Positions 10,933 to 38,076 of a stretch of DNA of 64,000 nucleotides are shown here, one piece after another; position 1 is the first letter of the stretch; every line of letters begins with the position of its first letter. This stretch comes from Synechococcus sp. AG-679-B05 (GTDB lineage: Bacteria > Cyanobacteriota > Cyanobacteriia > PCC-6307 > Cyanobiaceae), in assembly GCA_003210795.1 (NCBI GenBank), contig QCUJ01000001.1, positions 1 through 64,000 of the forward strand, read 5' to 3'. The notes under the pieces were generated by a model. That model did no database searches, was not told the DNA's origin, and saw only the letters and a list, made by a program, of their open reading frames with translations. The position numbers and the translations under genes are program-made.

Positions 10933-10991
10933 CTCAGTTGAGGGATGTGTCAGCTATGAATGAATGAGATCATGAAAGTACATCCCTCAAC
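10933..10991. repeat. Inverted repeat GTTGAGGGATGT / ACATCCCTCAAC, copy 1 of a dispersed element
   Basis: The 12-base arms at 10937-10948 and 10980-10991 are perfect, separated by 31 bases. The left side, CTCAGTTGAGGGATG (10933-10947), recurs in reverse orientation as CATCCCTCAACTGAG at 12163-12177 upstream of the cupin and metallothionein genes. Confidence 0.6.
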
Positions 10992-11572: not shown

Positions 11573-11954
11573 TTGAGTTTCTTTGCTTCTGATCGATTAA
11601 TAGCAAGGGTATTTCATCGGGGCTATAGGTATTTGAATTCATATTTCACAGTGCACATGAACTGTTGACCAATGTGCCAGGTCGAGTTAAGTGCGCGTTC
11701 AGGTTTTGTTCCACTGGTTGCTACTGAGCGATTGACGTTGCTTCACCCTGACGTGCTTTGGCACCATCGCAATAACCTTGCCCCGTTCATGTTGAAGCGG
11801 GCGGTGCTAATTCGGTGGATCAGTCCTGTTAACAAGTCTGTTGTTTCAATCTGGCAGTTTTGTTGTTGTGTGATCGCCCCCCTTAATGTGTTTTGTTTGG
11901 TCGGTTTTTTCCTCGACAGGGTTTAGGTCTAAGCAAGTTGAGCTTGATTTGTGC
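11573..11954. other. Intergenic stretch of about 380 bases, nothing convincing
   Basis: The ORF-track frame at 11672-11926 (84 codons) has no SD or known motif and ends close to the metallothionein remnant in opposite orientation. I see no RNA gene. Sequence beyond 11955 is the 3' flank of the frameshifted metallothionein. Confidence 0.4.
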
Positions 11955-12112
11955 TTAGCAGCACGCACAGCTGCCGCAGCACTGCTCATGTCACCCAAGC
12001 CATCAGCGCAGGATTTTGAGCAGTACCTCTTTCTGTCCTGCTCGATCCCAGAGTGTTGAGCAACGCTGCAGCCGCATGGCTCACAGACGCAGACAGTTGT
12101 CGTCTTCGTCAT
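11955..12112 (-). pseudogene. smtA: Cyanobacterial metallothionein (SmtA-like) with a one-base frameshift
   Basis: Metallothioneins bind Zn, Cu and Cd through cysteine clusters. The ATG at 12112, with TAAGGA about 7 bases upstream, opens MTKTTTVCVCEPCGCSV, then RYCSKSCADG, the N-terminal half of the SmtA family. The expected Cys-rich C-terminus is absent in this frame, but the -1 frame reads EQCCGSCACC followed by TAA at 11955-11957. One inserted base near GGTGACATGAG would restore a roughly 52-residue protein (SmtA has 56). The ORF track's 88-residue version runs on in the wrong frame. A real mutation or a sequencing error are both possible. Confidence 0.8.
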
Positions 12113-12162
12113 CTGAATTCCTTACGTCTCCACCTTCTCTAGGGCAGGGTTATGAGCTCTTG

Positions 12163-12180
12163 CATCCCTCAACTGAGGGA
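12163..12180. repeat. Palindrome TCCCTCAACTGAGGGA, copy 2 of a dispersed element
   Basis: Arms TCCCTCA and TGAGGGA are perfect around a 2-base centre. CATCCCTCAACTGAG is identical to the reverse complement of 10933-10947. It lies between the metallothionein remnant and the cupin gene and could be an operator or a small mobile repeat. Confidence 0.55.
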
Positions 12181-12282
12181 TTGATTCAGAACCTCGCAAC
12201 CACGTTTCCCTACCCGACTGTTTCACAAAAATAACCACGCCAGCACTCAGCCTTCCAGCGTTTGAATCCCAGACAGCTTCTC

Positions 12283-12759
12283 TCAGGGTTGCGTATTTGG
12301 GACGAGATCGATCACCACCGCTGTGGCGGGTTGGTCCGAGTTATTTCGCCAGCCATGGAGCACACCGGTTGACTCAAAGACGGCATCTCCCGCCGTCCGT
12401 TGGATTGATCGCGGGGCTGATCCATCGTCGCGGACTTCGATCAAAGTCCCTTTGATTACGTAGGCGACGCCTGGTCGCCTCTGATGCTGATGCCATGCCA
12501 CGGATCCACCAGGGTCGATCGTGATGCGTCGGGTGCGCAGCATCCTCCCGTTCATGGCGCTGAATTCCCCCGAGAGATCCAGATTGCCCAGCGGTTCAAT
12601 GCCCACCTTCGTGGTGATTGAGGGTGCGCCGTGGGGCGGCATCCGCTGTTCCTTTGCGGGGGTCACGGTCTGCACTGCGTGGTTCTCATGTGCCATCGCA
12701 GCTGTTCCCGCCATGACTAGACCCATGAGGGTGATGACCGATAGGACAGGCGCTCGCAT
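12283..12759 (-). CDS. Exported cupin-fold protein
   Basis: A 158-residue protein with a clear signal peptide (MRAPVLSVITLMGLVMAGTAAMA) and one C-terminal cupin barrel: WHQHQRRPGVAYVIKGTLIEV carries two metal-type histidines, and GDAVFESTGVLHGW the last one. It is therefore a small periplasmic metal-binding cupin. The family covers many activities, so substrate and reaction cannot be named. Its base composition resembles the core genome more than its AT-rich neighbours. Confidence 0.8.
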   Translation of the reverse strand: MRAPVLSVITLMGLVMAGTAAMAHENHAVQTVTPAKEQRMPPHGAPSITTKVGIEPLGNLDLSGEFSAMNGRMLRTRRITIDPGGSVAWHQHQRRPGVAYVIKGTLIEVRDDGSAPRSIQRTAGDAVFESTGVLHGWRNNSDQPATAVVIDLVPNTQP

Positions 12760-13731: not shown

Positions 13732-14007
13732 TCAGGGTTGGTGCTGCTGCACCACAGTCCGCAGTTGTTCGGCGTCCAGTTCGGTGACCACAAACACCTC
13801 CTGGGCCATGGAACCTTTGCGAGCCATCATTTTGTATCCACCACGAATGGGTGCTGAAACCCTGAGCTGCAGCGTCTGGCAACGTCCTCTCACGCGGCTG
13901 ATCACCGCCGGAGTGATGGTCTGGATCCCTCGCTCTTTGGCAAGACGCTTCAACAGGGGAATCAACCCGTCAACGTAGGTGCTGTGCGTAACGACGACCC
14001 GGCCCAA
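13732..14007 (-). CDS. Conserved hypothetical protein, DUF2103-like
   Basis: The conserved part begins GRVVVTHSTYVDGLIPLL and continues with GIQTITPAVISRVRG and APIRGGYKMMARKG, which I associate with the DUF2103 predicted metal-binding family of cyanobacteria. The family name is from memory. A TTG at 14007 matches the expected N-terminus (91 residues) and frees the divergent promoter; the ORF-track start at 14100 overlaps the neighbouring gene. Function unknown. Confidence 0.65.
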   Translation of the reverse strand: MGRVVVTHSTYVDGLIPLLKRLAKERGIQTITPAVISRVRGRCQTLQLRVSAPIRGGYKMMARKGSMAQEVFVVTELDAEQLRTVVQQHQP

Positions 14008-14080
14008 TTCAGTAATAAACCCTGAGATCGGCGCGACCCTAGCCAGCCTGGCTATGCCGTAGACAGCTCCGCGTGTCGTG

Positions 14081-14308
14081 ATGCTGAAATCCGTCGACAC
14101 CCTGCGTGATGCAGTGTCTGGTCCCTTGACGGATCGCTGTGGTATTCAGGCCCGGATGCTCACGGCAGAACTGCATGGTGATGAAGTGCGTGGCCTCGCT
14201 CTTTGTCCCGGGCGTGTTGTGCGTTTTGTACTGGATGCCCAGACCAGTCGACTGAGCACGGTTGATTTGTTGCGTCTCACGCAGACCAGCCGTAAACCAG
14301 CGGCTTGA
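14081..14308 (+). CDS. Hypothetical protein, 75 residues
   Basis: The ATG at 14081 (a GTG lies one codon upstream) encodes MLKSVDTLRDAVSGPLTDRCGIQAR..., a small soluble protein with alternating strand-like segments (GLALCPGRVVRFVLDAQ). Stop to stop it abuts the convergent clpS. No family recognised. GC-rich codon use is consistent with a core gene. Confidence 0.55.
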   Translation: MLKSVDTLRDAVSGPLTDRCGIQARMLTAELHGDEVRGLALCPGRVVRFVLDAQTSRLSTVDLLRLTQTSRKPAA

Positions 14309-36070: not shown

Positions 36071-37978
36071 TTACATTCCCCGCTGCATCAGGGTTCCCAT
36101 CAACTCCGAACTGCGAGTTTGGAATCCTGCCAGCTCATTGGGTTCGAGTCCGCCAACGCTGAGCCGAGCCATGTCATAGAGATGTCTCGAAAGGTCCTTG
36201 GCCAGAACCTCTGTGGGGGATGTGCCACTGTCTCCCACCAGAACGCTGCCTGATTTGAGTTTCAGCAAGCCTTCCACCAATGGGTGACGGCGGTTCACCA
36301 ATAGAACGTGATGATCGGGCAGGCCTGGGAGTCGCTGCTCCATCAAGGCACCCATGTCGTTCAGCCGTCGCATCTGCTCGGGAAGAAGAATCATGGCCGG
36401 AGGTGCTGCATCCCCTTTCAGAGCCTGTACCTGGATCGACACTTTGTCGTTGCTCAGGGCATCCTTGATCAGATCCCTCAGACGATCAGATTCCGTTGTG
36501 CCGTCTTGATCGGCGAGCTCTGTGTCATTTTCGCGCAGACTTTCGTCCAGTTCCGCATCGACGCGCTGGAAGGTGAGTTCTCCATGACGCTGTTCCAGCC
36601 ATGGGATGAACTGGGTGTCGATCACGGTTTCCAGCTTCAGCACCTCCACCCCCTGGGAGGTCCACAGGTTCAGAGCTCCAGCCTGGGCGATGTCATCTGT
36701 GCTGTACAGCACACGCTTGTTGTTGTCGTCGTCGAGGCGGCTGCGATATCCCTCCAGAGTGGTGTAAGACCTGTTTTCAACAGCGATTGGATCAGCATCT
36801 TCGCCCTCTGAATCCATCTTGGCTGTGGTGCCGAACAGAATCAGTTCCGCCACCTGATCGGCAAACTTCTCATCCTCCATTGCGCCGATTTTGACGAATG
36901 GAGCCAGTGAATCCCAGGCTTCGGCATAGGCCTTGGGATCGTCTTTTTTAAGTGAACGCAGTCGATCCGCTACTTTTTTTGCAACAAAATTTCCGATGGA
37001 TCGCACCCGTCGGTCGGTCTGAAGAGCACTGCGGCTCACATTTAAAGGGATATCCGGTGAATCAATCACACCGCGGAGAGGCAGCAGATAACGCGGCACC
37101 ACTTCCTTGATGGAATCGCTGACAAAAACCTGGTTGCAGTAAAGCTTGATCTCGCCTTTCTCCCAGTCCGCCCGACCTGTCTGCTTCGGGAAGAACAGAA
37201 TTCCCTGCAGGTTGTAGGGATAATCCGTATTGAGATGCACCCAGAGCAGCGGATCACCCTGGAATGGGTACAGATAGTTGTACAGGTCGATGTAGTCCTG
37301 ATCGGTGAGCTCGCGAGCGCTCTTGCGCCACGGTGCCACCATCTTGTTGATTGTGTCCCCTTCCAGTTGCACCGGCACTGCCATGAAGTCGCAGTAGGTG
37401 TTGATCAGGGTTCGGATTCGTGCTGGTTCGAGATATTCCAGCTCTTCATCCATCAAATGAAGAATCACGTCTGTGCCCGGTTGGTCCCGTTCAGCAGCGC
37501 TGATGCTGAAATTGGGGGAGCCATCACAGCTCCAGAGCACGGCATCTCCATCCGGGCGAGCTGAGCGTGTAAGCAGGTCGACCCGTTTGGCAACCATGAA
37601 GCTCGAATAGAAGCCCAGGCCGAAGTGGCCAATGATTGCGTCGTCCTCCTGTTTGTATTTCTCGAGAAAATCCTCAGCGCTGGAAAACGCCACCTGATTG
37701 ATGTAGCGCTTCACCTCATCGGCTGTCATGCCGATGCCGTTGTCGCTGATGGTCAGGGTCTTGGCCTCACGATCAACCCTGATGCCAATGCAGCCTTCCT
37801 CCCCCTCACTGCAATCGCCAGCCATGGCCGCCATGCGGCGTTTGCTGATGGCATCCACACCGTTGCTCACCAGTTCCCGAAGGAAAACCTCATGGCCGGA
37901 ATAAACGGCCTTTTTGATGATCGGAAAGATGTTCTCGGTGTGGATCTGGATCTGACCCTGTTCGTCCATCACCGCCAT
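36071..37978 (-). CDS. htpG: Chaperone HtpG (Hsp90)
   Basis: 635-residue GHKL ATPase chaperone. Visible are FLRELVSNGVDAISKRR (cyanobacterial variant of the usual ELISNASDA), DNGIGMTADEVKRYINQVAFSSAEDF and GHFGLGFYSSFMVA for ATP binding, then middle and C-terminal domains. In cyanobacteria HtpG helps heat, oxidative and phycobilisome protein stability. Start at MAVMDEQGQIQIHTENIF. Normal length. Confidence 0.95.
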   Translation of the reverse strand: MAVMDEQGQIQIHTENIFPIIKKAVYSGHEVFLRELVSNGVDAISKRRMAAMAGDCSEGEEGCIGIRVDREAKTLTISDNGIGMTADEVKRYINQVAFSSAEDFLEKYKQEDDAIIGHFGLGFYSSFMVAKRVDLLTRSARPDGDAVLWSCDGSPNFSISAAERDQPGTDVILHLMDEELEYLEPARIRTLINTYCDFMAVPVQLEGDTINKMVAPWRKSARELTDQDYIDLYNYLYPFQGDPLLWVHLNTDYPYNLQGILFFPKQTGRADWEKGEIKLYCNQVFVSDSIKEVVPRYLLPLRGVIDSPDIPLNVSRSALQTDRRVRSIGNFVAKKVADRLRSLKKDDPKAYAEAWDSLAPFVKIGAMEDEKFADQVAELILFGTTAKMDSEGEDADPIAVENRSYTTLEGYRSRLDDDNNKRVLYSTDDIAQAGALNLWTSQGVEVLKLETVIDTQFIPWLEQRHGELTFQRVDAELDESLRENDTELADQDGTTESDRLRDLIKDALSNDKVSIQVQALKGDAAPPAMILLPEQMRRLNDMGALMEQRLPGLPDHHVLLVNRRHPLVEGLLKLKSGSVLVGDSGTSPTEVLAKDLSRHLYDMARLSVGGLEPNELAGFQTRSSELMGTLMQRGM

Positions 37979-38076
37979 GGCTTGCGCATTAAAAACAGAC
38001 CATAAGAACGTGCTGCTGACCTGCTCAACCCACTGGGGAGTGCAGGTCTCCGTACTTCAGCTGTTGCAGGGTTTGC

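Follow-up and report, generated by a model that had tools for sequence, protein, structure and literature searches.

The window, a stretch of 64,000 bp that comprises positions 1 to 64,000 of contig QCUJ01000001.1 of Synechococcus sp. AG-679-B05, carries on its minus strand an SmtA/BmtA-like metallothionein gene, 12112 to 11955, whose N-terminal half is undamaged (Table 1). The open reading frame begins with an ATG at 12112, and its in-frame translation, which starts MTKTTTVCVCEPCGCSVAQHSGIEQDRKRYCSKSCADGLGD, passes from the N-terminal half into an unrelated, low-complexity tail and ends at a stop at 11846, for a product of 88 amino acids. The remainder of the gene is read in the -1 frame, which gives ...HEQCCGSCACC and then a TAA ending at 11955; the first-pass annotation of this DNA had placed the gene in these frames, and translation of 11955-12112 showed its coordinates to be exact to the base. 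The Pfam profile PF02069 (prokaryotic metallothionein) gives a partial match to residues 4-43 of the in-frame product, which scores 34.1 bits with the whole ORF and 37.1 bits with a shorter stretch, both above the curated cut-off of 33 bits. A gene for a DUF2103 "predicted metal-binding protein" lies nearby at 13732-14100 (minus strand), and a cupin gene at 12283-12759 lies between it and the metallothionein gene.

Table 1. Features of the metallothionein locus, in window coordinates
Feature	Position	Strand	Basis
Present-day ORF: metallothionein N-terminal half (residues 1-40) and out-of-frame tail, 88 aa	11846..12112	-	translation, Pfam
Metallothionein codons 1-41, in frame, six Cys	11990..12112	-	translation, alignment
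One base fewer in window than in both sister loci	11989..11990	-	alignment
C-terminal Cys cluster remnant, CCGSCACC + TAA, -1 frame only	11955..11989	-	translation
TTGAGGGATGC, upstream motif common to other Cys-Cys-type metallothionein genes	12162..12172	-	
Perfect palindrome ATCCCTCA-AC-TGAGGGAT, overlapping the motif	12164..12181	.	read from sequence

A scan of genome contigs identified close relatives at this locus in Synechococcus sp. AG-673-B04 and AG-679-D13 (genomes G011 and G015 of the same-genus set). At the corresponding locus both sisters have an undamaged copy of this gene that encodes 52 amino acids, and in both of them, but not in the window, the two Cys-rich halves typical of PF02069 proteins lie in one frame. 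The sister proteins are open through the C-terminal cluster, with the endings CCSSCASC and CCNSCACC; of the 11 Cys in the 52 amino acid protein of a sister, six belong to the N-terminal half and the other five to the C-terminal CCxxCxCC. Alignment of the two sister loci shows that each has exactly one base more at 11989/11990, and both sister genes terminate before the start of the sequence that forms the 3' tail in the window. The window contig is collinear with G011 contig 2 over 86 kb at 96.6% identity with 36 gaps, and this orthology excludes a chance resemblance. The frame is disrupted relative to undamaged orthologues at the same locus, and these two orthologues support the earlier claim that the C-terminal cluster was destroyed by the absence of one base; a comparison with related strains had been proposed as a check of it.

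The fold of a metallothionein depends on the metal that it binds, and in Synechococcus elongatus SmtA four of the N-terminal Cys form a zinc-finger-like site. The N-terminal CxCxPCxC...YCSxxCADG half of SmtA (PDB 1JJD; PF02069) is common to the window gene, and a whole sister protein aligns with it over residues 4-51 (E = 4e-8). SmtA holds its zinc in a Zn4Cys9His2 cluster (PMC10119931). Unlike SmtA, proteins of the window type end in CCxxCxCC without a C-terminal His, and it is this half that is out of frame in the window.

Codons 1-41 have acquired five amino acid changes (A9V, K25Q, G27R, Q33K and G41D) and two silent changes in the window lineage, and seven flanking ORFs 12 nonsynonymous and 97 synonymous changes (tallied by hand). 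The ratio of 5:2 differs from the 12:97 of the flanks, whose genes are longer and more constrained (Fisher p = 7e-4), but not significantly from the 2:4 of the gene's two remaining branches (p = 0.29), and the counts are small. All 18 undamaged relatives in the genus share A9, G27 and Q33, so that three of the five changes fall at invariant columns, for which the neutral expectation is about 35%; this favours a gene that was already free of constraint. Constraint on the locus may be weak across the whole clade, since G011 has Ser in place of a C-terminal Cys that is conserved in most relatives. The window gene still has every C-terminal Cys codon as well as its upstream motif, so any decay would be very recent; their persistence also fits an error of sequencing or amplification.

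An error of sequencing, amplification or assembly, in which case the cell would carry a whole gene and the gap would be an artefact of the fragmented assembly, appears unlikely to us. The genome is indeed a draft (1.88 Mb, 109 contigs, 77% complete), the C-terminal half keeps all its remaining Cys codons, and another frameshift candidate on the same contig sits in a poly-G run; however, the metallothionein gap lies outside any homopolymer, coding frameshifts are otherwise few in the 86 kb, and one indel error cannot explain substitutions at three invariant positions of the same short gene. The gaps relative to G011 are mostly intergenic, in poorly conserved short ORFs, or frame-keeping, and just one more long gene is clearly broken, at contig position 65649 (G000 contig 1) beyond the window, where there is a run of G6/G7; with a single further clear frameshift in the coding sequence of 86 kb, the assembly is not riddled with indels. 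At 65649 there is one G more than in G011, which shortens a 437 amino acid ORF to 283 amino acids and may be either real or a homopolymer error. Two apparent frameshifts near 37996-38065 were rejected as intergenic, because the 635 amino acid ORF at 36071-37978, upstream of which they lie, is open and whole. The first-pass annotation had left inactivation and sequencing error side by side; the non-homopolymer gap and the amino acid changes at otherwise invariant positions favour true inactivation over the error, and we infer that the lesion is present in the living cell.

The window protein, if made, would keep its N-terminal Cys and be unable to complete the multi-metal cluster, because translation would enter the unrelated tail; at most the N-terminal four-Cys zinc site would be left, and the binding of several Zn, Cd or Cu ions in a thiolate cluster, which characterizes the family, has presumably been lost. 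It is very improbable that the altered protein is instead functional, as an N-terminal domain that holds one zinc and has a new tail attached. All six Cys of the N-terminal half and the upstream motif are kept, and this half weakly resembles FCS-type zinc fingers (E = 0.09-0.2, under that family's cut-off), but the tail consists of out-of-frame and 3' sequence before which the gene ends in both sisters, and three invariant non-Cys positions of the N-terminal half are changed. Programmed ribosomal frameshifting that joins the two halves, which are both present, close together and in adjacent frames, is less credible still and was rejected: the protein is encoded in one frame in both sisters, the junction GGTGACATGAG has no slippery run, and a TGA lies in the -1 frame just upstream of it.

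The same draft genome retains three further metallothionein genes, an undamaged one of the Cys-Cys type on contig 21 and two classical bmtA-like ones on contigs 5 and 9 (C5 and C9). A search for another smtA copy, which the first-pass annotation had recommended, found these three, and because these remain, metallothionein function has probably not been lost from the cell. Its view of the loss as an ecological signal is unsupported as stated, given the three copies that remain in a genome 77% complete and the loss of this type in other genomes as well. We conclude that the window gene is probably a redundant cyanobacterial metallothionein gene that has recently become a pseudogene. With three other genes able to cover the function, selection on the window copy was probably already weak, and a one-base deletion in the window's lineage would then have diverted translation into the unrelated tail, with relaxed selection as the presumed cause.

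Damaged copies are not confined to this strain. A Cys-Cys-type profile searched against 34 genomes of the genus found 25 loci, six of which, including the window copy, are damaged. The other five have a TGA at codon 27 (L081, in G029, a single-contig genome), a missing second half (L084, G016 contig 43), an incomplete first half together with a stop (L080, G013 contig 66), most Cys lost (L083, G005 contig 8), and no in-frame start codon with an altered end (L082, G022 contig 2). The six lesions all visibly differ, which suggests that they are independent events. All six genomes keep another uninterrupted metallothionein, and the recurrence of damage in at least five genomes besides that of the window makes the loss of a copy look like the ordinary turnover of a spare gene, not a strain-specific signal. 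Among the titles listed in a search of the literature, none dealt with cyanobacteria that have lost metallothionein genes. Viral contigs, when scanned, gave one distant, short metallothionein-like match (L079, an IMG/VR contig; 40% over 30 residues).

The heptamer GGGATGC, often as part of TTGAGGGATGC or TGAGGGATGC, lies upstream of 10 of 21 distinct Cys-Cys-type sequences examined in the genus, broken copies among them; besides the window gene it is carried by L008, L009, L014, L018, L020, L022, L030, L055 and L060. In nine sequences it starts 75-77 bases ahead of the first Cys codon and in one 87 bases ahead, and about 20-25 bases after the motif is a CTA-rich stretch that could be a -10 box. 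None of the eleven classical copies examined in the genus has the motif upstream. Because it was first spotted by eye and the counts were made on those very sequences, they are a lead and not a test. The arms of the palindrome that overlaps the motif in the window are also present in G015 and are changed in G011.

Upstream regions were also scored against an assumed 15-base Zur-like consensus. A clear Zur-box-like site was found in none of the 21 Cys-Cys-type sequences (at most 10 of 15 consensus bases; 9/15 at best upstream of the window gene), and 12-13 of the 15 bases are matched upstream of 8 of the 11 classical copies; the C5 and C9 copies of the present genome match 13/15. The bmtA gene of marine Synechococcus WH8102 (SYNW0359) is activated by Zur (PMC9337993). 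The C5 and C9 copies, also marine Synechococcus metallothioneins, resemble it in their Zur-box-like upstream sites, whereas the window copy and its Cys-Cys-type relatives are without a clear site of this kind, and about half of them have GGGATGC. The almost constant position of this motif in about half of these genes, together with the lack of a clear Zur box in all of them, suggests that they form a second class of metallothionein under separate regulation. We put forward tentatively, as a serious possibility somewhat short of probable, that marine Synechococcus have such a class (CCxxCxCC, GGGATGC, no Zur box) which responds to something other than Zur and has been lost repeatedly and independently, the window gene being a recent case.

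The window case alone is one broken spare gene, ordinary in kind, but its context points to turnover of metal-storage genes in ocean picocyanobacteria, in which one class mostly keeps Zur-box-like sites and the second, 6 of whose 25 copies are damaged, frequently carries another motif upstream. Metallothionein gene counts for these genomes should therefore be checked for damaged copies before they are read as metal adaptation; the two-class picture is the part of the result worth following. We note that TTGAGGGATGT, one mismatch from the metallothionein upstream motif, occurs in the window at 10938-10948 (plus strand) and at 10980-10990 (minus strand), as a facing pair separated by 31 bases, and that the window has six such matches where shuffles give an expectation of 1.9.
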